NCBI GenBank assembly: GCA_024686335.1 | Contig: JAILCI010000029.1 | Coordinates: 1-64,000 of the forward strand | Length of the DNA: 64,000 nt | Origin: Bacteroidales bacterium | GTDB lineage: Bacteria; Bacteroidota; Bacteroidia; Bacteroidales; WCHB1-69 | Direction of reading: 5' to 3' | Shown: piece by piece, positions 9,748-22,663 of the stretch | How positions within the stretch are numbered: position 1 is the first letter of the stretch | Layout: the number at the start of each line of letters is the position of its first letter | Position numbers and translations under genes: made by a program | The notes under the pieces: model-generated | The model's input: only the letters and a program-made list of their open reading frames with translations | What the model was told of the DNA's origin: nothing | Databases searched by the model: none

Positions 9748-9782
9748 AGCGCTGACAGAGATTTCTGCCAGCGCTTTTTTTT
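9748..9782 (+). terminator. Rho-independent terminator after the HMA gene
   Basis: The arms AGCGCTG (9748-9754) and CAGCGCT (9769-9775) pair perfectly and are followed by eight T. Confidence 0.9.
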
Positions 9783-9795
9783 ATGGGGGTTATAT

Positions 9796-10226
9796 GAATG
9801 ATGGCACAACAAAGATGATTACAAAGTCGAAAAAATTACATTTTAACCACACCATGATTTTACCGAGGCACCTGCCCATAGAGCACGCGGGCGGGTAGGC
9901 CGACATGCGGTGCGGACGCGGTGTGAATGGCCGGCCTCCAACAGCGGCGTGCAAAGGCGCTTGCGTTTACAAAAATGCATGCCTCCCGTGTATTTTTCCG
10001 TTTGCAGCATGCTGCATTTTTGTTCACGTTTGCCGCCGCTGTCAGAGGGCGGACAGAGCGGGACGGGATTCATGTCGGCTTGATCTTTTGGCAACTTTTC
10101 TATCAAGAGAAAAGTTGAAGAATTATATCTATGGGGGTTGTCTGCAATGAAGACATTGTCTCTCTTAAAAAAACGTCTATTAACTACATGTTTGTGTATA
10201 CAAGGAGTCATCAGGTATATAGTTCC
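9796..10226 (+). mobile_element. MITE-like foldback element, copy 1
   Basis: This ~430-bp block recurs at 17823-18267 (same orientation) and 22231-22663 (inverted), with only scattered differences in a GC-rich core. The core folds back on itself: GCCGACATG (9899-9907) pairs with CATGTCGGC (10071-10079), ACAGCGGCG (9941-9949) with CGCCGCTGT (10034-10042), and ACAAAAATGCATGC (9969-9982) with the region 10007-10023. A separate hairpin AACTTTTCT/AGAAAAGTT sits at 10093-10116. The ends are imperfect inverted repeats containing TATAT and CTGATGGCAC-like motifs. Short open frames inside are conserved only as much as the DNA and are not called as genes. A non-autonomous transposable element or a structured RNA are the two readings. 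It fills most of the 9783-10377 gap. Confidence 0.65.
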
Positions 10227-10290
10227 TTTTTTTGTTTTATTTATATGGTATGACATAATGTCAGTCGTTTCCTAAGGCTAAAATAATTTT

Positions 10291-10306
10291 TGGCACAATT
10301 GTTGCT
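10291..10306 (+). promoter_or_regulatory. Sigma-54-type -24/-12 promoter candidate upstream of dnaK
   Basis: TGGCACAATTGTTGCT contains the invariant GG and GC of RpoN promoters separated by exactly 10 bp, and matches the TGGCAC-N5-TTGCW consensus throughout. It lies 71 bp before the dnaK ATG. No TAnnTTTG box was seen between it and the gene. An enhancer-binding activator site was not identified. Confidence 0.55.
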
Positions 10307-10377
10307 ATATAGTTTCTCGTGCTGAAAAAAATCGAGAGCACACAAAATTTAGTAATAACAATAAAAAATATACAACT

Positions 10378-12306
10378 ATGGGAAAAATAATTGGAATTGA
10401 CTTAGGAACTACAAACTCTTGCGTATCCGTAATGGAAGGCAATGAGCCGGTTGTTATACCGAACAGCGAAGGCAGAAGAACCACCCCTTCAATCGTGGCT
10501 TTTGTCGGCAACAATGAACGTAAGGTCGGTGACCCTGCAAAACGTCAGGCTATCACCAACCCTACAAAGACTATCTTCTCTATCAAGCGTTTCATGGGTG
10601 AGACCTATGACCGTGTGATTAAAGAGATTGAGCGTGTACCTTACACTGTTGAGCGTGCTGCTAACAACATGCCCAAGGTGAAGATTGACGATCGTAGCTA
10701 TACTGCTCAGGAAATCTCTGCTATGATTCTTCAAAAAATGAAGAAGACTGCTGAAGATTATCTCGGTCAGGAAGTGACGGAGGCTGTCATCACCGTTCCG
10801 GCGTACTTTAGCGACTCACAGCGTCAGGCTACTAAAGAGGCTGGCGAGATTGCCGGTCTGACTGTGAAACGTATTATCAATGAGCCTACAGCTGCTGCTT
10901 TGGCTTATGGTCTGGACAAAAAGAAATCTGACTCTAAAGTAGCTGTTTTCGACCTCGGTGGCGGTACTTTCGATATCTCCATCCTCGAACTTGGTGACGG
11001 CGTCTTCGAAGTAAAATCCACTAATGGTGATACTCACCTCGGTGGTGATGACTTCGACCACAAGATCATCGACTGGTTAGCAGAAGAGTTCATGAAAGAC
11101 TATAACGTAGATTTGCGTAAGGATGCTATGGCATTGCAACGTCTGAAAGAGGCTGCTGAGAAGGCTAAAATCGAACTTTCCAGTTCAAACTCTACTGAGA
11201 TTAACTTGCCGTATATCATGCCTATCGACGGTGTTCCTCAACACTTGGTACGTACTCTTACTCGTGCGCAGTTTGAGCAGTTGTGCGACGACCTGATCCG
11301 TGCTACAATTGAACCGTGTAAGAAAGCTCTTTCTGATGCTGGTTATACAACAGCTGATATTGACGAGGTTATTCTCGTGGGTGGTTCTACCCGTATTCCC
11401 GCAATCCAGGATATCGTTGAGAAATTCTTCGGTAAGACCCCGTCTAAGGGCGTTAACCCTGATGAAGTCGTTGCTATCGGCGCTGCTATCCAAGGTGGTG
11501 TCCTCACCGGTGAGGTGAAAGATATCCTCTTGCTCGACGTTACCCCGCTGTCCCTCGGTCTTGAAACCCTCGGTGGCGTGATGACAAAACTTATCGAGAG
11601 CAACACTACCATCCCTACCAAGAAGACGGAGACCTTCACCACGGCTGTCGACAATCAGACCTCTGTGGAGATTCACGTTCTTCAGGGCGAGCGTCCTATG
11701 GCTGCCCAGAACAAGAGCATCGGTCGTTTCCACCTCGATGGCATTCCCGCTGCAATGCGTGGCGTTCCTCAAATTGAGGTTACCTTCGATATCGATACCA
11801 ACGGTATCTTGAGCGTTACTGCTAAGGATAAGGCTACCGGTAAAGAGCAGAAGATTCGTATCGAGGCTTCTTCCGGCTTGAGCGATGATGAAATCAAGAG
11901 AATGAAGGCTGAGGCTGAGGCCAACGCTGACGCTGATAAGAAAGCCAAGGAGGAAATCGATAAACTGAATGGTGCTGACAGCTTGGTATTTACTACCGAG
12001 AAACAGCTCAAGGAGTTTGGCGATAAGGTTCCTGCTGACGACAGAGCCAAGATCGAGGCTGCAGCTGCTAAACTGAAGACCGCTCACGACAATAAAGACT
12101 TCGCTGGCATCGACGCCGCTACCGCTGAGTTGCAGAACGCTTGGCAGGCAGCTTCCGCTAAGATGTACCAACAGAATGGCGGTGCTCAACCTGGTGCTGA
12201 CTTTAACCAGCAAGCCGGTGGTCAACAAGGCCCTCAAGGCGGTAACACTAATACCGGTGGTAACGATTCTGAGGTTCAAGACGTTGATTTCGAAGAAGTT
12301 AAATAA
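10378..12306 (+). CDS. dnaK: Molecular chaperone DnaK (Hsp70)
   Basis: The 642-residue protein is a complete Hsp70. The ATPase domain (1 to about 385) shows [18 protein letters not shown], the [17 protein letters not shown] block, [27 protein letters not shown] and [11 protein letters not shown]. The linker [19 protein letters not shown] leads to the substrate-binding domain and helical lid, and the tail is Gly/Gln-rich and ends [11 protein letters not shown]-driven binding and release of unfolded polypeptides in the cytoplasm is its role. grpE and dnaJ are not adjacent, so the gene is a single unit with its own terminator (12342). The upstream promoter resembles the sigma-54 type. Confidence 0.99.
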
Positions 12307-12341
12307 GATTTAGACTTTTAACCTTTTCCATAATTATGAGG

Positions 12342-12369
12342 GGGCATCGAGAAATCGGTGCCCTTTTTT
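12342..12369 (+). terminator. Rho-independent terminator of dnaK
   Basis: GGGCATCGA (12342-12350), a GAAA tetraloop and TCGGTGCCC (12355-12363) form a 9-bp stem with one G-T pair, followed by six T. Confidence 0.9.
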
Positions 12370-12891
12370 GTTGAGTTGTTGAATCGTTGAACTGTTGAAT
12401 TGTTGAAAACCGTGGGGGAATACAATCTTTGTTCCTTTGCGTCTTTGCGTTAAAAACATCAGTGAGCGCAGCGAACATATAATCTGCGGAATCCAAGATC
12501 CGTAAGGATCTAAAATAATATTTGCGTTCATCAGTGAGATCTATGGGAGGAAAAAACTCTGAGTAATCAAGAAGCCCGAAGGGCGACAGAACACAAGCAG
12601 GTGGTGGAGCACAGCGGAACCCCTCCCTTTGGGGCTCAGTCAGACACAATCTCATGTCATCATCAGGGCAAGAATAGTTGCGTACCTTCGGCACGCTGAT
12701 ATGACACCGCACCGTCATACCCCACACTGACGTGCGGGGTTAATAGGATAGCGTGACTTCTGCACGCAGGCAAAGTGCGGAGGCAATTATGAGCGTAGCA
12801 AATAAAATCTGCGAGATCCAAGATCCGTAAGGATCTAAAAAAATAATCTGCGTCTATCTGCGAGATCTGCGTAATCTGCGGGATAACAAAC
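12370..12891. repeat. Gene-free stretch of degenerate short repeats
   Basis: No credible gene is present. It opens with 9-bp period TTGTTGAAT-like repeats (12371-12410). Fragments built on ATCTGCG and TTTGCGT follow. The palindrome AGATCC-GTAA-GGATCT occurs at 12496-12511 and again near 12820, and ACCCCACAC/GTGCGGGGT forms a hairpin at 12719-12740. Related fragments recur at 24424-24447 and 56540-56800. Confidence 0.6.
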
Positions 12892-13344
12892 CTACTCTTT
12901 CAACTTCGTGTCGATGATGATCGTGACAGGTCCGTCGTTGACCAATCCTACCTGCATATTGGCACCGAAAACACCTTTTTTGACAGGTTTACCACATTCG
13001 TCAGCCAAATGTTTGCAATAACTTTCGTATAGAGGAATGGCCAACTCGTGTCCGGCAGCACGGTAGTATGCGGGCCGGTTGCCCTTGCGGGTGGAGGCCG
13101 TCAACGTGAACTGTGACACAGCCAATAGCTCCCCGCCTACGTCCTTAACCGACAGATTCATCACTCCTGCATCATCGTCAAAGATGCGCAGATTGGCAGT
13201 TTTGGCGGCCAGCCAGACGGCATCAGCCTCACTGTCGCCCTGTTCCACGCCCACTAAGATGAGCAGTCCGGTTCCAATAGAGGATTCAATTTTGCCTTCG
13301 ATGGTTACTGAGGCAGCGGTTACACGTTGAATGACAAGTCTCAT
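12892..13344 (-). CDS. dtd: D-aminoacyl-tRNA deacylase
   Basis: Starting at the ATG at 13344 the product is 150 residues, the usual DTD length, and begins with the family N-terminus [18 protein letters not shown]. The two active-site motifs are present: SQFTLTA and the Gly-cisPro-type VNDGPVT near the C-terminus. The enzyme hydrolyses D-amino acids from mischarged tRNA in the cytoplasm. The frame stays open upstream to 13707, but that part lies inside menA and is not family-like, so the shorter start is used. It is the third gene of the ubiE-menA-dtd operon (23-bp gap after menA). Confidence 0.95.
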
Positions 13345-13367
13345 ATTCGGTTTTTTTGCAGGTGTTA

Positions 13368-14249
13368 TTAAATGAATAGCGTGATGGCAGCTAAGATCAC
13401 GTAAAGGATATTTAGCAATACGGCACCTAGCAGACATTTGTTGTATTGAGCGCCTTTTGCACGTAGTGTGGCAATGAAAAGGAGCAGACCGGGTATGATG
13501 ATAAACATCGGCAAACTCCATCCATATGCCAGATAAGCAAGTACAGGCATCAGCAGTACTACGATAAGCATGCCGATCTCGCCGGCGCGCTTTCCAAAAC
13601 GTACAGGGAAGGTCTTTTTGCCCACTGCACGATCTTCCTCTATATCGCGCAGGTTGTTGGCTATCAATATGCACATGGAGATGAGGCCGCATACGCCGCC
13701 TGCCCAAAAGGAGGTTGTCGAAAAGGTATGCGTTTGTAGATAGGTGGTGCCGGTAGAGGCAATGACTCCGTAGTATAGGAAGACAAAGATATCCGCAATG
13801 CCTAAATAGGAAAGGGAGTGGTCAGTGGCAGTATAGAGCCAAGCGAAGAGAAAGGCGGTGAGACCGATGATCAGGATGGGCAGGCAGTAGACGACTCTAA
13901 ATCCTTCTCCGGGAATGATTCCAGAATAGATAAGAAGTCCTAATCCTGTTGACAAGGCGATGCCTATGGTGATAAAGATGGCGTGTTTTATTTGGTCGAT
14001 GGAGACCTCGCCTTCTGCAAGTGCCCGTTTAAAGCCCTTACGTCCGGCCTTGTCTGTCCCGCGTTTGAAATCGTAGTAGTCGTTGATGAGATTTGACAGT
14101 ACTTGCAGAGACATAGCACATATGGCTGTGAAGATGCCGATGGGTACGTTTACACTGTTGGCAACGAATAGTCCGATAAGGACCGGACAGAGGGATGCAA
14201 AGAGTGTGTGGCTACGGATGACGCGAATCCAGAGGAGTAAATTATTCAT
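13368..14249 (-). CDS. menA: 1,4-dihydroxy-2-naphthoate polyprenyltransferase
   Basis: The 293-residue membrane protein belongs to the UbiA prenyltransferase superfamily and attaches the isoprenoid side chain to DHNA in menaquinone synthesis. The two Asp-rich substrate motifs are visible: [14 protein letters not shown] (about 52-65) and [16 protein letters not shown] (about 196-211). About eight or nine membrane segments alternate with these loops. Its start overlaps the ubiE stop by 4 bp, so the two genes are translationally coupled and carry out consecutive late steps of the same pathway. Confidence 0.93.
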
Positions 14250-14941
14250 TTTTGTGCTAAATAGAGAGTGGTGATGCCGAAGGTCATCGGCTTGAATGTT
14301 ACATTACGGAAACCGGCAGCGCGGAGGCGTTGGGCCATCTCCTCACCCCAGATGAACTCTTTGACACTGTGGTTGAGGTAGTTGTATGCGGTGGCGTCCT
14401 TGCTGACTCTTCGTCCAATGGCAGGTAGTATTTTGGAGAAGTAGAAATCGTAGAAGAAACGGATGACGCTGTTGTCAGGATAGGAGAACTCGAGAATGGC
14501 AAGTTGTCCATCTTGGCGTAGAACGCGGCACATCTCTTGTAAACCTTTCTCAAGATCGGAGAAATTGCGTACTCCATAGGCACAAGTCACGGCATCAAAT
14601 TGTTCATCTGAATAGGGAAGTTCGAGCACACTGCCTTGTTCAAGTTTGATACGACTCTCCAGTTGCGCCTTGCGTATCTTATCTTTGCCAATGCGCAGCA
14701 TCTCTTCGGAAAGATCAATGCCTGTGATATGCTCGGACTTGTTCTGCCGTGCTATTTCTATAGCGAGATCAGCGGTGCCTACTGCCACGTCAAGGGCTTT
14801 CTTACAAGGAGTTAGCTTGCGTACAGCACGACGACGCCATCTGCGGTCTGTGTTGAGCGAGAGCAGGTGGTTGAGCCGGTCGTAGGTGCCCGCTATCCTG
14901 TTGAAGAGGCTTCCGATGTTCGTTTTGTCGTCTATTTCCAT
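14246..14941 (-). CDS. ubiE: Demethylmenaquinone methyltransferase
   Basis: The 231-residue class I SAM methyltransferase performs the last step of menaquinone synthesis. Family features are FNRIAGTYDRLNHLLSLNTDRRWRR at the N-terminus, the SAM motif ALDVAVGTADLAIEIA, ITGIDLSEEML, AYGVRNFSDLEKGL, and LILEFS-like AILEFSYP. The SAM loop reads DVAVGTAD where DVACGTGD is more common; the glycine that matters is kept. First gene of the operon with menA and dtd; a TAACTTTG -7 box lies at 14959. Confidence 0.93.
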   Translation of the reverse strand: MEIDDKTNIGSLFNRIAGTYDRLNHLLSLNTDRRWRRRAVRKLTPCKKALDVAVGTADLAIEIARQNKSEHITGIDLSEEMLRIGKDKIRKAQLESRIKLEQGSVLELPYSDEQFDAVTCAYGVRNFSDLEKGLQEMCRVLRQDGQLAILEFSYPDNSVIRFFYDFYFSKILPAIGRRVSKDATAYNYLNHSVKEFIWGEEMAQRLRAAGFRNVTFKPMTFGITTLYLAQK

Positions 14942-14958
14942 CGTTTTTTTCGAGGACG

Positions 14959-14966
14959 CAAAGTTA
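14959..14966 (-). promoter_or_regulatory. -7 box of the ubiE-menA-dtd operon
   Basis: The minus strand reads TAACTTTG, a perfect TAnnTTTG match, 18 bp upstream of the ubiE start. Confidence 0.55.
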
Positions 14967-15003
14967 CCAAAAAATCTTTTTCGCCCTTTGGAAAAATAAA
15001 GGC

Positions 15004-15213
15004 TGAATTGAAAATTGAAAATTGAAAATTGAAAATGGACTACGGGACTATTAAGGCTTCAGGTCTGTAACCCCATCATCCCTGATTTTACATCTTACAT
15101 CTTACCTCTTACGTCTCACGTCTCACGTCTCACGTCTTACATCTTACGTCTTACGTCTTACGTCTCACGTCTTACGTCTCCCGTCTCCCGTCTCACGTCT
15201 CACGTCTTACATA
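15004..15213. repeat. Two heptamer microsatellite blocks
   Basis: 15004-15037 is a run of the 7-mer ATTGAAA. 15089-15213 is about 17 units of a 7-mer TTACRTC/TCACGTC/TCCCGTC. The second block runs into the aldehyde dehydrogenase gene and contains its stop codon (15207-15209). Confidence 0.85.
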
Positions 15214-16598
15214 ATCTTCTTCACCATCCCAAACATCTTATACGGCATATATCTGAAAGGCAGGTCGAACAGGGTGGGGGAGGCGACTACAGAGCGACGA
15301 TGTGAGAACGCTTCGAAACTCAGGATACCATGATAGTGGCCCATGCCGGAGTTGCCCACGCCACCGAAAGGCAGATTGCCGTTAGCTATGTGCATGATGG
15401 TGTCGTTGAGACAGCAACCGCCCGATGAGGTGCGGCGCACAATGTTCCAACCCTGCTTCTCGTTGCCGAAATAGTACAAGGCAAGTGGCTTTTCGCGGTC
15501 ATTGATGTAGTTGACCACCTGATTTTCAAAACTGTCGCTGCTGTCGTTGATGGTGATCAATGGGAAGACAGGTCCGAAGATTTCAGTGGTCAGCACATCG
15601 GCATCGGGACGGATATTGTCCAGCAGGGTAGGTTCGATGAATCGCTGTTGGGCGTCAGTATGTCCGCCGTATACGATTTTTCCTTCCGATAGATAGCTGC
15701 TTACGCGCTCAAAGGCCTTGTCGGTGACCATGCGCACAAAATGTTTGCTATTGATGATGTCATCACCATGCAACTCTTTTATGGCCTTAGCAAACTCTTG
15801 CACGAATTTGTCCTTTACGTCTTGGTGAATCAAGATATAGTCCGGGGCGATGCAAGTCTGACCAGCATTGAGAGTCTTGCCCCAGGCGCAACGCTTGGCA
15901 GCCAATTTGATATCTGCACTCTTGTCGATGATGCAGGGACTCTTGCCGCCTAACTCGAGGACCATCGGCACGAGGTTCTCGGCTGCTGCGGCTGCCACGT
16001 GACGGGCCAGAGCAGGACTTCCGGTGAAGAAGATCATGTCGAACTTCATGCTGAAGAGATGCTTGTTGACCTCGCGATTTCCTTGCGCCACGGCGATATA
16101 CTCTTCCGAGAAGGCACTCTTGATCATCTTTTCAAGAGCTGAAGAGACGTGAGGCACATAGGGTGATGGTTTGAGGATGGCGGTGCAACCGGCAGCGATG
16201 GCGCCCACCAGCGGATTCAATAGCAATTGCACAGGATAGTTCCACGGGGAGACGATAAGTGCACTTCCGAGAGGCTCCTTGACAATGTAGCTGCGCGAGC
16301 CAAAAAGAGTTATCGGAGTTCTGTGCCGTTCCCGACGCGCCCACTTCTTAACATGCTTTATCGCTTCGCGAATCTCTGCTTTCACTATGGAAATCTCTGT
16401 GAGGTAGGCCTCCTCGTATGATTTGTGCAGGTCCTGCCACAACGCATCTGCAAGTTCTTTTTCATGACTTTCCAATGCATTCAGCAACTTCTTGAGCTGC
16501 TCTTTGCGGAAATCCACGTTTAACGTGTTCTCTTTCCTGAAAAATGTCTTCTGTGATGCCAATACGGCATCCATTTTTTCAATTGTTGTATTTTCCAT
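15207..16598 (-). CDS. Aldehyde dehydrogenase family protein (class 3-like)
   Basis: From the ATG at 16598 the product is 463 residues (MENTTIEKMDAVLASQ...). It is an NAD(P)-dependent aldehyde dehydrogenase: SPWNYPVQLLLNPLVGAIAAG, the catalytic-base segment LELGGKSPCI, the nucleophile in LNAGQTCIAPDYIL, and EIFGPVFPLI. The short length, early AxxKTFFRKEN helix and absence of an N-terminal extension are like class 3 / fatty-aldehyde enzymes. The frame is open upstream to 16685, but that part encodes a dispersed palindrome (16634-16655), so it is excluded. The C-terminus ends inside a heptamer array, giving VKKIM. Physiological substrate is not known. Confidence 0.9.
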   Translation of the reverse strand: MENTTIEKMDAVLASQKTFFRKENTLNVDFRKEQLKKLLNALESHEKELADALWQDLHKSYEEAYLTEISIVKAEIREAIKHVKKWARRERHRTPITLFGSRSYIVKEPLGSALIVSPWNYPVQLLLNPLVGAIAAGCTAILKPSPYVPHVSSALEKMIKSAFSEEYIAVAQGNREVNKHLFSMKFDMIFFTGSPALARHVAAAAAENLVPMVLELGGKSPCIIDKSADIKLAAKRCAWGKTLNAGQTCIAPDYILIHQDVKDKFVQEFAKAIKELHGDDIINSKHFVRMVTDKAFERVSSYLSEGKIVYGGHTDAQQRFIEPTLLDNIRPDADVLTTEIFGPVFPLITINDSSDSFENQVVNYINDREKPLALYYFGNEKQGWNIVRRTSSGGCCLNDTIMHIANGNLPFGGVGNSGMGHYHGILSFEAFSHRRSVVASPTLFDLPFRYMPYKMFGMVKKIM

Positions 16599-16633
16599 AT
16601 TTCTATTTGAAAAATGACTGTCAAATATTATAT

Positions 16634-16655
16634 GAGACGTTCCATGGAACGTCTC
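16634..16655. repeat. Perfect 22-bp palindrome of the GTAGAGACG family
   Basis: The arms GAGACGTTCCA and TGGAACGTCTC are exact reverse complements, and the flank continues as CTCTAC. Related arms GAGACG/CGTCTC occur six times in the array at 30009-30592. It sits just upstream of the aldehyde dehydrogenase start. Confidence 0.85.
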
Positions 16656-16709
16656 TACATAGAGATCCCGAATTGTCGATCCCATTTCATTTTTTTTTGT
16701 TCTTACAGC

Positions 16710-16753
16710 TAACGTCTTACATCTTACATCTTACATCTTACATCTTACATCTT
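16710..16753. repeat. Heptamer array TTACATC
   Basis: About six units of TTACATC. The LOG-family gene ends within it: its stop codon (16745-16747) and last Met codon are part of the repeat. Confidence 0.85.
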
Positions 16754-17704
16754 CTCCTCTTCCCTGAATCTTACCAACTCATTGATAACCTCCTCACTCC
16801 CATCATAGTTGCTGAGTATTAAGTTCTTATATTTTCCGGAGGCCATGAGACTCTGGAGGAATGGGTAGACGGGCATCTCCTCATTCCAGAACTTCTTGCC
16901 CAGGAAGACCATTGGACTTGAGTAGCCGAAAGAGAGATAGTGGTTTTGGACGGCGTCCTGGAAGATCTCCTGCATGGTTCCGGCACTTCCCGGAGTATAG
17001 ACGACGCCTCCGAAGGCGATGGTCAGGATGCCCTCTTCCCGGATGCTGTTTTGGAATAGTTTGGCGATGTGCGAGGCAAAAGCTGTTGACGGTTCATGAC
17101 CGTAAAGCCAGGTCGGTATGCCCAGACTCTTATATTTTGTCTGCGGGTATTTTTGGATGACACGGAATGAAGAGTTGATCCACAGTTCATCTTTAAATGA
17201 TGGCGCTACGCTCAGTATCTGTAGGGCGTCATCAACCTCTTCTGTGCTTCGTCCAGCCATCCATGCTCCCAAGTGAGTGGCTTCCATGGCACCCGGACCG
17301 CCACCGCTGATCATCATGAATCCCAACTCTGTGAGTTCTTTGCTGAGCAGGACGATTTGGCGGTACATCTCGTCAGTGCGCAACAGGGCATGTCCGCCCA
17401 TGATGCCGACATTAAGTCTAGGATTGTGCTTGTCCAGGAACTCGTCGAGCGCCACCATAATGGAGTGGTCGTGAAGTGCTCGAGCCAAAGCCTCTTCTTC
17501 ACAACAGTCATGCTTCCCATGCTCCATGTAGTGCTTGTACACAACGCTGTCGTAACAGGTCTCTCTCGTCTCATCATGATCCGGGTCGTAATTTGCATAG
17601 AGTTCGAAAGGTGAATAGAGTTTCTGTCGCGTCACATCATAGGGCACCTCTTTGAGATGCTTGCCAATGTGAACATATTCTTTATAATCAGGTATAGAAA
17701 TCAT
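16745..17704 (-). CDS. LOG-family / TIGR00730-like Rossmann protein
   Basis: The 319-residue protein has a nucleotide-binding core resembling the LOG (formerly lysine-decarboxylase-like) family: NVGIMGGHALLRTD, the phosphate-binding MISGGGPGAMEA near residues 135-146, and YTPGSAGTMQEIFQ in place of the common PGGxGTxxE motif. Well-studied members release the base from nucleoside 5'-monophosphates, but this protein is longer, with a ~90-residue N-terminal extension and a PGSAGT variant, so the activity here is uncertain. It has a -7 box at 17725, and its 3' end lies in a heptamer array shared with the downstream gap. Confidence 0.8.
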   Translation of the reverse strand: MISIPDYKEYVHIGKHLKEVPYDVTRQKLYSPFELYANYDPDHDETRETCYDSVVYKHYMEHGKHDCCEEEALARALHDHSIMVALDEFLDKHNPRLNVGIMGGHALLRTDEMYRQIVLLSKELTELGFMMISGGGPGAMEATHLGAWMAGRSTEEVDDALQILSVAPSFKDELWINSSFRVIQKYPQTKYKSLGIPTWLYGHEPSTAFASHIAKLFQNSIREEGILTIAFGGVVYTPGSAGTMQEIFQDAVQNHYLSFGYSSPMVFLGKKFWNEEMPVYPFLQSLMASGKYKNLILSNYDGSEEVINELVRFREEEKM

Positions 17705-17724
17705 AGTAGGTGGTTTTTACTGGG

Positions 17725-17732
17725 CAAAGATA
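17725..17732 (-). promoter_or_regulatory. -7 box of the LOG-family gene
   Basis: The minus strand reads TATCTTTG, a perfect TAnnTTTG match, 20 bp upstream of the start at 17704. Confidence 0.5.
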
Positions 17733-17754
17733 GAAAAAATGTTGTTGAGTTGTA

Positions 17755-17800
17755 GCGAACTGCGTCCTCGGAGCGAACTGCGTCCCCGCAGTTCGGAGCC
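17755..17800. repeat. CGAACTGCG hairpin unit
   Basis: CGAACTGCG (17774-17782) and CGCAGTTCG (17787-17795) form a perfect 9-bp stem with loop TCCC. The same hairpin is repeated in the array at 18268-18930, on the far side of foldback element copy 2. Confidence 0.85.
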
Positions 17801-17822
17801 CAGTTGCTATTTTTCCCTATAA

Positions 17823-18267
17823 CTTAAAGGAGTTATCAGGGTGGCAAAATAAAGATGAGTACAAAGTCAAAAAAAATGCATTTTAACTCCAACATGATTT
17901 ACCGAGGCACATGCCCATAGAGCATGCGGGCGGGCAGGCCGACATGCGGTGCAGACGCGGTGTGAATGGCCGGCCTCCAACAGCGGCGTGCAAAGGCGCT
18001 TGCGTTTACAAAAATGCATGCCTTCCGTGTATTTTTCCGTTTGCTGCATGCTGCATTTTTGTTCCCGTTTGCCGCCGATGTCAGAGGGCGGACAGAGCGG
18101 GTGGCATTCATGTCGGCTTGATCTTTTGGCAACTTTTCTATCAAGAGAAAAGTTGAAGAATTATATTTATGGAAGTTGCCTGCCATGAAGCCATTGTCTC
18201 CCTCAAGAAAACATCTATTAGCAACATGCTTGGGCATACAAGGTGCCATCAGATATATTGTCCCTTA
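17823..18267 (+). mobile_element. MITE-like foldback element, copy 2
   Basis: Same element and orientation as 9796-10226, with nearly the same core. One arm differs (CGCCGATGT instead of CGCCGCTGT), breaking one pair of the ACAGCGGCG stem. The outer ends read CTTAAAGGAGTTATCAGG and, inverted, TTAAGGGACAATATATCTGA, an imperfect terminal inverted repeat. Confidence 0.65.
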
Positions 18268-18930
18268 ATTTTATAGTTTAATAATTTCATAAAACTATAC
18301 AAACTGCGTCCTTGGAGCGAACTGCGTCCCCGCAGTTCGAAGCCCATTTACCATTTCACCCCATTATAATTTCATAATTTAATAGTTTAATAATTTCATA
18401 AACTATACAAACTGCGTCCCCGGAGCGAACTGCGTCCCCGCAGTTCGGAGTCCAGTTGCTATTTTCCCATCATAATTTCATAATTTAATAGTTTAATAAT
18501 TTCATAAACTAAACAAACTGCGTCCCCGGAGCGAACTGCGTCCCCGCAGTTCGAAGCCCCGCAGTTCGTAATGTAGCAAACTGCGTCTCGCAGTTCGGAG
18601 CCCATTTACCATTTCACCCCATTATAATTTCATAATTTAATAGTTTAATAATTTCATAAACTATACAAACTGCGTCCTCGGAGCGAACTGCGTCCCCGCA
18701 GTTCGGAGCCCATTTGCAATTTCACCCCATCATAATTTCATAATTTAATAGTTTAATAATTTTATAAACTATACAAACTGCGTCCCCGGAGCGAACTGCG
18801 TCCCCGCAGTTCGTAATGTAGCAAACTGCGTCTCGCAGTTCGGAGCCCATTTGCAATTTCACCCCATCATAATTTCATAATTTCATAGTTTAATAATTTA
18901 ATAATTTCATAAAACTATACAAACTGCGAG
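18268..18930. repeat. Tandem array of AT-rich spacers and CGAACTGCG hairpins
   Basis: The motif ACTATACAAACTGCG starts repeat units at about 18301, 18409, 18515, 18667, 18775 and 18921, giving periods of 108, 106, 152, 108 and 146 bp. Each unit contains one or two hairpins with arms GAACTGCG/CGCAGTTC, a GGAGCCCATTT segment and AT-rich 9-bp repeats (TAATTTCAT). The 3' end is about 20 bp from the dipeptidase stop codon. No gene is present in 17705-18951. Confidence 0.85.
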
Positions 18931-18951
18931 GACGCTGTTTGCTCCTTCCCG

Positions 18952-20652
18952 TTATCTCTCCCTTCTCTCAATAACCTTCTTCAACTTATACCTGTCGCCA
19001 GTTGCTGAACCGATGGCGTCGATGAACTGCTGGTCGTAACCTGACGTTTCATAGCCCCAACGCTGGAACTCGCCATTTTCGTCGGTGCGGCGTACAACTT
19101 GGTCGTTGTATTTCACTATCAGATACTTGGCTAGCTTGTCCCAACGCTTCATCATCTTATCGGCATACTCTATGCTCTTGCGGTTCAGGTAGTCGCGACG
19201 GTCGGTTGAGGTCATCTCCTTGACGGCTGTCTCCACGCTGTCTTGGTCTGCGTGGTAATAGTCTTCCAACTCCTGTTGCGCCTTGCGGAGATCGCCAATC
19301 ATTATCGAGTAGCGTGGATAGATCATGTTGGCCACCCAGTTGTTCATCCAGAAGGCCGACTCGTATGAGAACTCGGTGCGCTGGTTGTTTTCGGGACGGA
19401 AGGGGTCTGGGACCTGCGTAATGCAACAGTAAAGCGGCACGTAGGCTACCATGTTGGCATCGTCGCAATTGAACCATACTACTCCTCCCACGGCATCAGG
19501 AAGCCACGAGCGCATCTGGCAGGTCATCGTGAAACCCGACTGCTGAGTGCCAATAGGACGCTCGCGGAAGTAGTTGACTCCGTCTTTGTCGCGGAAGTGC
19601 ATCGGCAACGGACGGATGGGCATGCCCCACGGACCAGCGGTCATATCGGCGGTCATGTCCAAAGGAGTGCCCTCAAAATGGTCACGCATGTCGTTTTGCA
19701 GGTCGCGCAAGGAGAGTGGCTTGTCGGGCTTTATCCAGAGCGGCAGATGGTCGCACACATCAAACTCTCCGTTGATGTACGGTAGATATTTGTCCATTTC
19801 GTCATGACTGCTGTGGTGACGGAAGAAACTCCAGACGCGGGCGTCAGCGTAACGTACATTCTCAAAGTCGATAGGACAGTAGGCATCGCGGAAGGAGAAC
19901 TCTTCGTCTTTGCCATTAAAAAAGCCCTTGTCACGGGCAAAAGTGATGACATCGGCAGCATAGACACACTCCACCTCAGGACGGTTGATATGCTTCAGGT
20001 TCTCACTGCTGATGCTTTTAAAGGATCTTCTCTGCTCCAATGGGAACTGTCTGATACGGCTCAAGTTAGCGTGGGCACAGATGCAGTCGTCGGGGATGCG
20101 CAGGGCGACCCAGACGGCGCCCGTCTGCTTCGGTCCCTTGCCGATAATCTCCATGATCCATGCCTCGTTAGGATCACAGATGGTGATGCTCTCTCCGCTG
20201 CTGTTGTAACCGTACTCCGCCACCAACTCCGCCATGCAGCGTATCGCCTCGCGTGCCGTGGTGGAACGCTGCAGGGCCAAGCGCATCAGACTGAAGTAGT
20301 CGAATGTGCCTGTCACGTTAACCAATGACATACGTCCGTCGAAGGTGCTCTCCACTATGGTCACCTGATGCTCGTTCATGAATCCGACAACATTGTAGGT
20401 GTGCTCAACCTCTTTCACGTATTTGTCTTTGATAGCAGGATTCCAGTTGTGGATGGCTATCATCTCGCCTGGCTCATGATGAGCCGCAGGACTGTAAAAT
20501 AACGAACCCGCAAAGCCGAAGCCGTCGCAGTTGTAGGTGCACATCACACTGCCGTCCACGGAAGCCTTCTTGCCCACAATGAGATTAGTGCAAGCCTTCA
20601 CGGGCATAATGCTGGCGATAAAGAGCAGAAATAATATTAATGATTTATTCAT
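18952..20652 (-). CDS. C69-family dipeptidase (PepD-like), exported
   Basis: The 566-residue protein has a signal sequence ending MPVKA and then C21-TNLIVGKKASVDGSVMC, the N-terminal-nucleophile cysteine motif of peptidase family C69. Removal of the signal would expose Cys21 as the catalytic residue. Other family segments are YNVVGFMNEHQVTIVEST, YGYNSSGESITICDPNEAWIMEI and CICAHANLSRIRQF. The enzyme should cleave dipeptides in the periplasm or at the surface, fitting peptide-based nutrition. It is transcribed alone on the minus strand with a TATATTTG box at 20696, and runs toward the hairpin array, with no conventional terminator visible. Confidence 0.92.
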   Translation of the reverse strand: MNKSLILFLLFIASIMPVKACTNLIVGKKASVDGSVMCTYNCDGFGFAGSLFYSPAAHHEPGEMIAIHNWNPAIKDKYVKEVEHTYNVVGFMNEHQVTIVESTFDGRMSLVNVTGTFDYFSLMRLALQRSTTAREAIRCMAELVAEYGYNSSGESITICDPNEAWIMEIIGKGPKQTGAVWVALRIPDDCICAHANLSRIRQFPLEQRRSFKSISSENLKHINRPEVECVYAADVITFARDKGFFNGKDEEFSFRDAYCPIDFENVRYADARVWSFFRHHSSHDEMDKYLPYINGEFDVCDHLPLWIKPDKPLSLRDLQNDMRDHFEGTPLDMTADMTAGPWGMPIRPLPMHFRDKDGVNYFRERPIGTQQSGFTMTCQMRSWLPDAVGGVVWFNCDDANMVAYVPLYCCITQVPDPFRPENNQRTEFSYESAFWMNNWVANMIYPRYSIMIGDLRKAQQELEDYYHADQDSVETAVKEMTSTDRRDYLNRKSIEYADKMMKRWDKLAKYLIVKYNDQVVRRTDENGEFQRWGYETSGYDQQFIDAIGSATGDRYKLKKVIERRER

Positions 20653-20695
20653 AAAATTTGTGAATTAATGATGATTTTTTTGATGATATGAGCAG

Positions 20696-20703
20696 CAAAT
20701 ATA
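20696..20703 (-). promoter_or_regulatory. -7 box of the C69 dipeptidase gene
   Basis: The minus strand reads TATATTTG, a perfect TAnnTTTG match, 44 bp upstream of the ATG at 20652. Confidence 0.5.
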
Positions 20704-20718
20704 AAAAAAAATCCCGAA

Positions 20719-20760
20719 GGGGCGTATCGTATACGCCCCTTTCAATATGCGATACGCCCC
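20719..20760. repeat. GGGGCGTAT palindrome pair between divergent genes
   Basis: GGGGCGTAT (20719-20727) and ATACGCCCC (20731-20739) form a perfect 9-bp hairpin, followed by a further half site GCGATACGCCCC (20749-20760). It lies between the divergent dipeptidase and protease promoters, so a regulatory site is possible, but the repeat-rich context makes a dispersed palindrome equally likely. Confidence 0.65.
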
Positions 20761-20775
20761 GACAACGAAATTTTT

Positions 20776-20783
20776 TATTTTTG
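20776..20783 (+). promoter_or_regulatory. -7 box (TATTTTTG) of the M61-like protease gene
   Basis: Perfect TAnnTTTG match 21 bp before the ATG at 20804. It places transcription initiation downstream of the alternative ATG at 20747 and so decides the start. Confidence 0.6.
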
Positions 20784-20803
20784 CCCCCTTATTATTTATC
20801 CCT

Positions 20804-22216
20804 ATGAAAAAAATCCCTCTCCTCCTCTCCATCCTCCTCATCGCCCATGTTGCCCAATCGCAGATTCAGCAGATTGATTATCTCCTCTCTTGGAAAGGGG
20901 ATGGACTTGGTGTCACCGTGACTGTGAAATCAGATCAAGACACTCTCCTCTTCACATACGCCACCGATAATGGCGGTTTTACCGACCAGATGAGCTGGTT
21001 TCAGGATTTGACTGTCAGCAAGGGTAGGGTGGAGGTGGCTCCAAATTCCCGACAATTAACGGTTTTGCCTGTGAAAGGTAATGCAACTTTTTCATATACA
21101 GTCCGTTGCACTCTTCCGAAGGGCTATGGGTCTCCAGGCGGTTGTCTGTGGGATATGTTCCGTCCCGATATCGATGATAAGATGCTTTTCTCGCGAACTG
21201 AGAACATCTTCGCGGTTCCTCAGGATGGTGACGAGATTCCGGTCTCTGTAAAGTGGAAGTCCCTGCCCGACTATCCTGTCTTCTGCATGTATAACCCAGG
21301 CAAAGGCACAGGACCATTTCGGGGGAAAGTTAGCGACATCGCCGAATCGGTCATGGCGGGCGACTCTCTGCTGACTGTCGACACCGTGCTGATCGATGGA
21401 CATCTGCACTATATGGTTACGGCGTTACGAAAGAGTCCCGAGAAAAACAAGGCGGATTTGAAGGCCTATTTTAAGACTTTTTATGATGCTATCACAGACT
21501 TCTGGGAGTATGAGTATGATGGGCCCTATTCTATGCTCTTTTTCCCATTCAGAGAAAACACTTTTGAGATGACGGGCAATGGTTTTTCCAATGGTTTTCT
21601 ATCCCGATATGATGCCACAGAGGATACGATTTTGACAATTGGTCGTCGCGACCTCTTCACTCACGAGGTGGGCCATAAGTGGTTGAGCGATGGATCAGCT
21701 TGGTTCTCAGAGGGTTTTAATGAGATGCAGACGGCTTATCAGATTGTCGCTTCCGGCCTTGACGATCCCGCCTATTTTGCCACCTATTTCAATGTGGCTT
21801 TGGAGGGACTTTACCACAACCCGCATCGTAATGTTACGGGAGAGGAGGCTGATGAGCGTTTTTGGGACGATGGTTCCTATATCTGGTTACTCTATTGGCG
21901 TGGTTTCAACTATGCTTTTCATCTCGCGGGAGTCTATGAGCACGAGACTGGCAATCCCAACGCCTGGAAGGCTATGATGAAGGAGGTCAAGCCCTTCTTG
22001 AACGATTTTACACCGGAAAAATTTCTGGATGCCATGAGCCGTTTGATGGATCGTGATCGGCTGTTGAGGGATTATGAGAAGTATATCGTCAAGGGTGAAA
22101 ATTTTGTATTTACCCCTGAGAATCTACCTTCAGGCTGTGCGATTGTTACCCAAGAGGATGGCTCGCCTCAGCTGATAATTACGGATTCAGCGCTTTTTGC
22201 AAAACATTTTCGATGA
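20804..22216 (+). CDS. Exported M61-like metalloprotease/aminopeptidase
   Basis: From 20804 the product is 470 residues with a signal peptide MKKIPLLLSILLIAHVAQSQ. The middle contains HEVGHKW near residue 287 (HExxH zinc ligands and catalytic Glu), followed by WFSEGFNE supplying the third ligand, the arrangement of gluzincins such as M61 glycyl aminopeptidases and M1 enzymes. The N-terminal half is beta-rich, as in M61. A typical C-terminal PDZ domain is not evident, so it may be a shortened or divergent member. The upstream in-frame ATG at 20747 precedes the promoter box and is rejected. It may act with the neighbouring dipeptidase in peptide breakdown outside the inner membrane. Confidence 0.75.
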   Translation: MKKIPLLLSILLIAHVAQSQIQQIDYLLSWKGDGLGVTVTVKSDQDTLLFTYATDNGGFTDQMSWFQDLTVSKGRVEVAPNSRQLTVLPVKGNATFSYTVRCTLPKGYGSPGGCLWDMFRPDIDDKMLFSRTENIFAVPQDGDEIPVSVKWKSLPDYPVFCMYNPGKGTGPFRGKVSDIAESVMAGDSLLTVDTVLIDGHLHYMVTALRKSPEKNKADLKAYFKTFYDAITDFWEYEYDGPYSMLFFPFRENTFEMTGNGFSNGFLSRYDATEDTILTIGRRDLFTHEVGHKWLSDGSAWFSEGFNEMQTAYQIVASGLDDPAYFATYFNVALEGLYHNPHRNVTGEEADERFWDDGSYIWLLYWRGFNYAFHLAGVYEHETGNPNAWKAMMKEVKPFLNDFTPEKFLDAMSRLMDRDRLLRDYEKYIVKGENFVFTPENLPSGCAIVTQEDGSPQLIITDSALFAKHFR

Positions 22217-22230
22217 TAATAACATAGAAA

Positions 22231-22663
22231 CTTTAAAGGGACTATATACCTGATACCACCCTGTATGTTGCTAATAGACGTTTTTTTAGGAAGGCAGGGG
22301 CTTCATGGCACGCAACTTTCATAATTATAATTCTTCAACTTTTCTCTTGATAGAAAAGTTGCCAAAAGATCAAGCCGACATGAATCCCACCCGCTCTGTC
22401 CGCCCTCTGACAGCGGCGGCAAACGTGAACAAAAATGCAGCATGTAGCAAACGGGAAAAGACACGGAAGGCATGCATTTTTGTAAACGCAAGCGCCTTTG
22501 CACGCCGCTGTTGGAGGCCGGCCATTCACACCGCGTCCGCACCGCATGTCGGCCCGCCCGCCCGCGTGCTCTATGGGCAGGTGCCTCGGTAAATCATATT
22601 GTTTTTTTTGACTTTGTAGTCATCTTTGATGTGCCATCAGGGATAAAACTCCCAACTTTAAAG
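22231..22663 (-). mobile_element. MITE-like foldback element, copy 3 (inverted)
   Basis: Reverse complement of the element at 9796-10226 and 17823-18267, with the nested stem arms GCCGACATG/CATGTCGGC and ACAGCGGCG/CGCCGCTGT intact. Both outer ends are the 8-bp palindrome CTTTAAAG, which could be a target-site duplication or part of the terminal inverted repeat (GGACTATATACCTGAT against GGGAGTTTTATCCCTGAT). The element begins 15 bp after the protease stop codon. The following 22664-22760 is AT-rich 9-bp repeats. Confidence 0.65.

Follow-up and report, generated by a model that had tools for sequence, protein, structure and literature searches.

A repeated intergenic element of Bacteroidales, probably a non-autonomous transposon with a conserved structured RNA as cargo

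What has multiplied a set of near-identical intergenic repeats in a Bacteroidales genome, and what do the repeats carry? Three copies lie in a window of 64,000 nucleotides, positions 1 to 64,000 of contig JAILCI010000029.1 (assembly GCA_024686335.1, hereafter the own genome), and a sequence-only reading had offered two interpretations: that they are a non-autonomous transposable element, or that such an element serves to carry a family of structured RNAs. The latter holds, on the evidence of terminal inverted repeats (TIRs), target duplications, empty sites and compensatory change: copies are bounded at the same ends, paired positions have changed together and unoccupied sites exist in relatives. 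The repeat is probably a non-autonomous DNA transposon resembling a miniature inverted-repeat transposable element (MITE), with a conserved structured RNA as its cargo. The RNA probably represents an uncatalogued Bacteroidales family, possibly itself part of a phylum-wide group. It poses a concrete question, whether such an RNA serves its transposon selfishly or belongs to the host and was dispersed by a transposon.

All three copies lie between open reading frames (ORFs), as had been reported, and the match to copy 1 is 90% for copy 2 and 86% for copy 3. Their locations stood, whereas the bounds first given (9796-10226, 17823-18267 and 22231-22663) were refined by alignment of the ends (Table 1). 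The nested pairs of complementary arms and the AACTTTTCT hairpin described in the earlier reading are present, and the ends, noticed there as related in inverted orientation, are TIRs of about 22 bp (5' GGGAgTTATATACaTGATGGCAC, 3' GTGCCATCAGGTATATAGTCCC). The sequence CTTTAAAG, taken for the repeat end in copy 3, lies outside the repeat, within a perfect 9-bp target duplication, TTTAAAGTT; the duplication of copy 1 matches at 8 of 9 positions and none is recognisable at copy 2.

Across the own genome (2.74 Mb, 64 contigs) 41 places match copy 1 by BLAST, 40 of them with E <1e-100, and this copy count is a lower bound with 40 of 70 BLAST candidates scored. A pattern made from the inner 17 bases of the TIR (up to 3 mismatches) gave 55+53 = 108 matches; when reversed, it gave 2+4 = 6. 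In 35 of 50 copies examined the position of both ends was clear, and the 9-bp A/T-rich flanks of these 35 match at 71.4%, a figure that falls to 48.8% when partners are shuffled (z 7.3); the 9-bp register gives the best flank match, and its inner 8 bases have a z of 7.6. Ten internally deleted relatives of 186-340 bp each lack differing internal parts, and nine of them keep both ends. A crude test of 42 loci flanked on both sides by ORFs flagged none that runs through the element, and no TIR pair with an interior of transposase size was noticed among the matches listed in the TIR scans. The element has several properties by which a MITE is recognised, namely TIRs at fixed ends, a target-site duplication, short length, high copy number and no transposase gene inside.

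The locus upstream of dnaK, where copy 1 resides, was compared with fourteen dnaK loci of relatives. Judged by eye, four of these (G025, G011, G005 and G001) share the upstream HMA-domain gene of the window; in the remaining ten the sequence upstream is another one, and no core match there is convincing. Two of the four, G025 and G011, are empty sites with an uninterrupted terminator T-run, the same T-run in which copy 1 sits in the own genome. In G005 the terminator is occupied by an element that contains the core but is inverted relative to copy 1 and has a single recognisable TIR, and in G001 the T-run holds an element of 111 bp, 144 bases upstream of dnaK (L234:2766-2876), which has the TIR of copy 1 but gives no core match. 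The insertions in the own genome, G005 and G001 look like independent events in one terminator. Transposition is shown by the common ends of the copies, their 9-bp duplications and the sites left unoccupied at an orthologous locus.

Terminators are a favoured target of the element, but not its sole target. A strong hairpin (-8 kcal/mol or better) adjoins 11 of 35 insertion runs, compared with 8.6% of 713 other T-runs taken from the same loci (Fisher p 2e-4), and a control with the hairpin on the wrong side gave 3 of 35. Read in the orientation of the element, 26 of the 35 sites are A-rich and nine T-rich. Because the target duplication copies the T-run, an insertion would leave the terminator whole and may be mild in effect, and the preference for terminator T-runs suggests a route by which such elements could become abundant without much harm.

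The GC-rich core is predicted to fold as a long irregular hairpin with a mini-hairpin in a three-way junction, followed by a 3' H-type pseudoknot. Covariation was examined in 13 cores from G035, G269, G302, G173 and G171, in an alignment (A4) that was fitted to a covariance model, R1, built from 27 cores, and that is biased toward the structure of that model. In the stored structure 91.6% of cells were paired, compared with 64.0% in shuffled and 38-44% in slid controls, 39 of 51 pairs had changed on both sides, and the covariation score was 0.632 against 0.198 shuffled and 0.08-0.092 slid; slid controls collapse despite the fit of the alignment to R1. RNAalifold gave its own 48-pair structure for the 13 cores, with 39 pairs doubly changed, and 38 of the 48 were doubly changed when one copy was taken from each of the five genomes. 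Compensatory changes in these cores are in excess of the controls.

Unpaired parts of the fold are also conserved. The internal loop GUGAAU opposite AGAGCGGG is nearly invariant (GGGAAU opposite AGGGCGGG in G171), and most copies contain the mini-hairpin GGCG-CUUG-CGUU, whose four pairs are unchanged in all 13 cores, variants being confined to a different loop in L166 and L171 and an extra base in L168. The partners of the pseudoknot change together, reading CUUGAU/AUCAAG, CAAGAU/AUCUUG in L161 and UCGCC/GGCGA in L162. The RNAalifold energy is -51.7 for the forward strand and -43.0 for the complement, 12 of 13 copies have the lower energy on the forward strand, and the complement loses the outer helix. 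Cells with G-U number 54 against 3 with A-C, a count biased by a structure that admits G-U. Because compensatory change extends across five genomes and one strand is preferred, comparison of the cores shows a conserved, RNA-like fold that favours one strand.

Within the genus the arms of the core are less variable than the flanks. BLAST with copy 1 matched 8 of 60 genomes, namely the own genome and seven more. All eight belong to the 36 genomes from the genus, and none of the 24 from other families matched. An alignment of 71 distinct cores from seven genomes, the seventh being the diverged G035, gave about 93-99% mean identity for the arms within and between G000, G001, G005, G011, G019 and G025, with the lowest mean, 92.6%, in the 5' arm of two G011 copies; flanks are 81-82% identical within the own genome. 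Between G000 and five relatives mean identity was 96-98% for the 5' arm and 94-96% for the 3' arm, compared with 83-88% to the same five relatives for the first 1.1 kb of dnaK. Among 25 near-full own copies the substitution rate relative to the consensus was 0.4% for the 5' arm, 2.4% for the 3' arm and 0.6% for the pseudoknot, as against 8.5% for the apical loop and 9.7% for the flanks.

Such conservation could be only apparent, and the element an ordinary MITE, if recent amplification, gene conversion or assembly collapse had made the cores alike. Some own-genome copies are indeed cut by contig ends (contigs C41, C53 and C28), and broken copies keep clean arms. The explanation is nevertheless very unlikely, given that the apical loop varies almost like the flanks and that between families pairing survives far-reaching sequence change. 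Assembly collapse in particular hardly accounts for the pattern, because the variable apical loop lies between clean arms (66-81 bp).

Several results weigh against a transposon with an RNA cargo. Copy 1 folds better than 100 of 100 shuffles on each strand, with a z-score of -3.7 on the given strand and a slightly better -4.0 on the complement, and the TAnnTTTG -7 promoter element is seen on neither strand of the own-genome consensus. The alignment bias described above belongs here too. Among 12 chosen examples the pseudoknots of L163 and L169 pair at only 4 of 6 positions, and that of L166, which fits by eye only with a bulge, was excluded from the 12. That the arms are clean because every copy is under selection was considered and is unsupported: fourteen deletion derivatives are equally clean (5' arm 0.5%, 3' arm 2.8% and pseudoknot 0.3% against 8.6% in flanks), and because they show the same contrast selection on each intact copy is not demonstrated. 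At 24 of 35 insertion sites there is no strong terminator hairpin, and a rank test of hairpin energies gave only p 0.028. A transposase search confined to PF01609 found two matches in five genomes, with no TIR nearby, and no parental insertion sequence (IS) for the element.

The behaviour of the two strands in the shuffling test and the lack of a promoter motif would both suit a core that acts as DNA, its palindrome forming a cruciform or a single-strand hairpin for transposition or replication with no RNA involved. We consider this quite improbable. Against it stand the conserved unpaired motifs and the pseudoknot, the excess of G-U over A-C, the lower forward energies and the loss of the outer helix on the complement, and the nine of ten listed deletion derivatives that keep both TIRs do so while lacking part of the core.

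The interpretation of the core as RNA cargo raises the further question of how closely it is tied to its vehicle. RNA and TIR are separable: the RNA occurs without these TIRs, and these TIRs carry other cargo, neither of which the sequence-only reading had anticipated. No genus TIR (up to 4 mismatches) lies around two diverged cores in the scanned loci of G035, where the TIR pattern count is near control (3+3 against 1+2). Three G171 cores that were read lie in elements with another TIR, TATCCATAGCCGTCAGG (29+29 matches, 0 in the control), and G173 has GGGTNATTCGCTAAAA-like ends by eye. Conversely, three elements of G022 have the genus TIR at their ends but another GC-rich cargo, one that model R2 does not match and possibly a second structured family on the same vehicle. 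These elements extend over about 217-815 of L156, 201-720 of L157 and 165-562 of L158, and their cargo is palindromic, consisting of GCGTGCCGGCGCGGCGG and its near-complement. In G171 and G173 the RNA fold contains, or lies next to, palindromes of the CCCGATAACTATCGGG type that resemble REP-type insertions (L164, L169, L173, L163 and L172).

An RNA that lacks the genus TIR, as in the G035 loci, and a core near-invariant across species in which dnaK is only 83-88% identical, would also be expected of a small RNA family useful to its host, with the TIR element as one route of dispersal and copies persisting by helping the host. This is rather unlikely in view of the patchy presence of the RNA (BLAST matches in 8 of 60 genomes, none outside the genus, and at least 6 confirmed among 393 from the order), of copy numbers in the dozens per genome and of the abundance of broken copies.

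Beyond the genus, 393 genomes from the order were searched with R1, which matched five, namely the own genome and four from other families (G269, G302, G173 and G171), a lower bound with at most 6 candidates per genome scored. The junction motif ARRGGCGCTTGCGTTY occurs in 9 of the 393 with no control matches; six of these nine, the own genome included, are confirmed by a model, with G234 as the addition to the five matched by R1, again a lower bound. The other three, G226, G053 and G348, were dropped, L183 and L184 scoring only 15-17 bits with R2 and L187 giving no match, at sites that look coding by eye. Locus L191 of the retained genome G302, at a contig edge, likewise scores only 15 bits. 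In G234 two model matches lie within about 1.4 kb on the same strand (L185:206-353 and 1444-1592).

Among 395 genomes of the phylum R2 recognised the own genome alone; because at most 6 candidates per genome were scored, this absence is weak. A 3' pseudoknot pattern was found at 18 places in 10 of the 395 genomes, in other classes and with no control matches, where it follows other long hairpins; it does not match the own genome, whose spelling differs. R2 matches none of the 13 of these 18 loci that were run. In G683 and G788, two of three such genomes aligned, the repeated unit approximates by eye to the hairpin and pseudoknot, with no TIR seen by eye, and G492 is mixed. Homology is claimed for the family at the level of the order only, and any link across the phylum would depend on the shared 3' module. 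Plasmid and phage collections gave no match to copy 1, and the plasmids none to two relatives either. In viral contigs the core pattern matches 0 stretches and the junction motif occurs in three, with R2 scores of 10-14 bits. Two viral-classed IMG/VR contigs (L245 and L246) contain the pseudoknot pattern as a hairpin and pseudoknot of the other-class kind, with no R2 match.

A recurring 3' pseudoknot, and repeated units that approximate to hairpin plus pseudoknot without visible TIRs, would be compatible with an element resembling a short interspersed element (SINE), copied via RNA by a reverse transcriptase that recognises the pseudoknot. This seems extremely doubtful: in the genus the units have the TIRs and 9-bp duplications typical of DNA transposition, the other-class pattern does not match the own genome and R2 recognises none of the other-class loci run. 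A broader proposal is that Bacteroidota contain a phylum-wide class of mobile RNAs, in which one 3' pseudoknot module is combined with fast-evolving long hairpins and spreads in several modes, inside TIR elements here and without visible TIRs elsewhere, the RNA being the selected part and probably recruiting machinery that copies or tolerates it. We offer this as speculation and think it unlikely.

Returning to the transposon with RNA cargo, its mobility would depend on a DDE transposase supplied in trans. More tentatively, the RNA may be transcribed from a putative promoter and work as RNA, its conserved unpaired motifs and pseudoknot may be bound by a conserved Bacteroidota protein, and it may have been picked up as cargo rather than as a cis-acting signal for these TIRs. 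Action of the RNA in trans through a conserved protein is a possibility to be taken seriously, although we do not expect it on balance. Large structured RNAs with no assigned function have, when carried on mobile DNA, repeatedly proved to be parts of new machines, as with OMEGA and bridge RNAs.

No Rfam 15 family reaches its gathering score anywhere in the window, and when copy 1 and 28 loci were scanned with relaxed settings every match on the elements fell short of its threshold, as did STnc410 on copy 1 (20.9 of 50 bits) and FtrB overlapping the L163 copy (37 of 66 bits). The element RNA is a multi-copy, strongly covarying RNA without an Rfam 15 match. No description of the element was found in a search of the open PMC literature. 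MITEs reported in Bacteroidota include an IS982-derived MITE of Cardinium (PMC9769881) and a P. gingivalis MITE with a minisatellite (PMC4596501). The present element shares with them short length, many copies, inverted-repeat ends and lack of a transposase, but its interior is a conserved fold common to families of the order. Among structured bacterial repeats, Correia/NEMIS, BOX and ERIC are interspersed, intergenic and palindromic, and folding of their transcripts has been proposed; the present element is like them in all three properties and differs in its larger fold, pseudoknot, three-way junction and covariation across families.

HEARO and OMEGA RNAs are large, structured and pseudoknotted and are carried by IS200/IS605-type elements, with ORF-less copies known; the ends of such elements are not known to have inverted repeats or to cause target duplication. 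The likeness lies in a large, structured, pseudoknotted RNA on a mobile element, whereas the TIRs and 9-bp duplication found here differ from an IS605-type end, and HEARO gave no match in the Rfam scans. Flavo-1 RNA (RF01705), a Bacteroidetes motif widespread in Flavobacteriaceae, is not known to have a function (PMC2864571, PMC9723704). It is likewise a Bacteroidetes RNA motif, but its model has 76 positions and does not match the elements. A single match below threshold (28 of 42 bits) occurs in L225, close to an other-class copy but on the other strand.

Table 1. Coordinates of the three elements, their parts and a short repeated unit in the window
Feature	Position	Strand	Basis or context
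Copy 1, TIR element, 442 bp	9785..10226	+	End alignment, BLAST, Pfam; between HMA-domain gene and dnaK
Copy 1 target duplication, left, TTTTTTTAT	9776..9784	+	Within T-run of intrinsic terminator
Copy 1 target duplication, right, TTTTTTTGT	10227..10235	+	End alignment
Copy 1 RNA core, predicted long irregular hairpin with three-way junction	9898..10081	+	Covariance model R1 match
Copy 1 predicted 3' H-type pseudoknot, CUUGAU with loop AUCAAG, stem AACUUUUCU/AGAAAAGUU	10079..10117	+	
Copy 2, TIR element, 437 bp; target duplication not recognisable	17828..18264	+	End alignment
Copy 2 RNA core	17937..18119	+	
Copy 2 3' pseudoknot	18117..18155	+	
Copy 3, TIR element, 416 bp	22238..22653	-	End alignment
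Copy 3 target duplication TTTAAAGTT, element's 3' end	22229..22237	-	
Copy 3 target duplication TTTAAAGTT, element's 5' end, identical	22654..22662	-	
Copy 3 RNA core	22372..22554	-	
Copy 3 3' pseudoknot	22336..22374	-	
GAGCGAACTGCGTCCCCGCAGTTCG unit	17771-17795, 18315-18339, 18423-18447, 18529-18553, 18681-18705, 18789-18813	+	

Antisense ORFs of 137 aa in copy 1 and 116 aa in copy 2 gave no Pfam match. Around copy 2 a short unit, GAGCGAACTGCGTCCCCGCAGTTCG, occurs in six copies, all on the forward strand and flanking the element on both sides.

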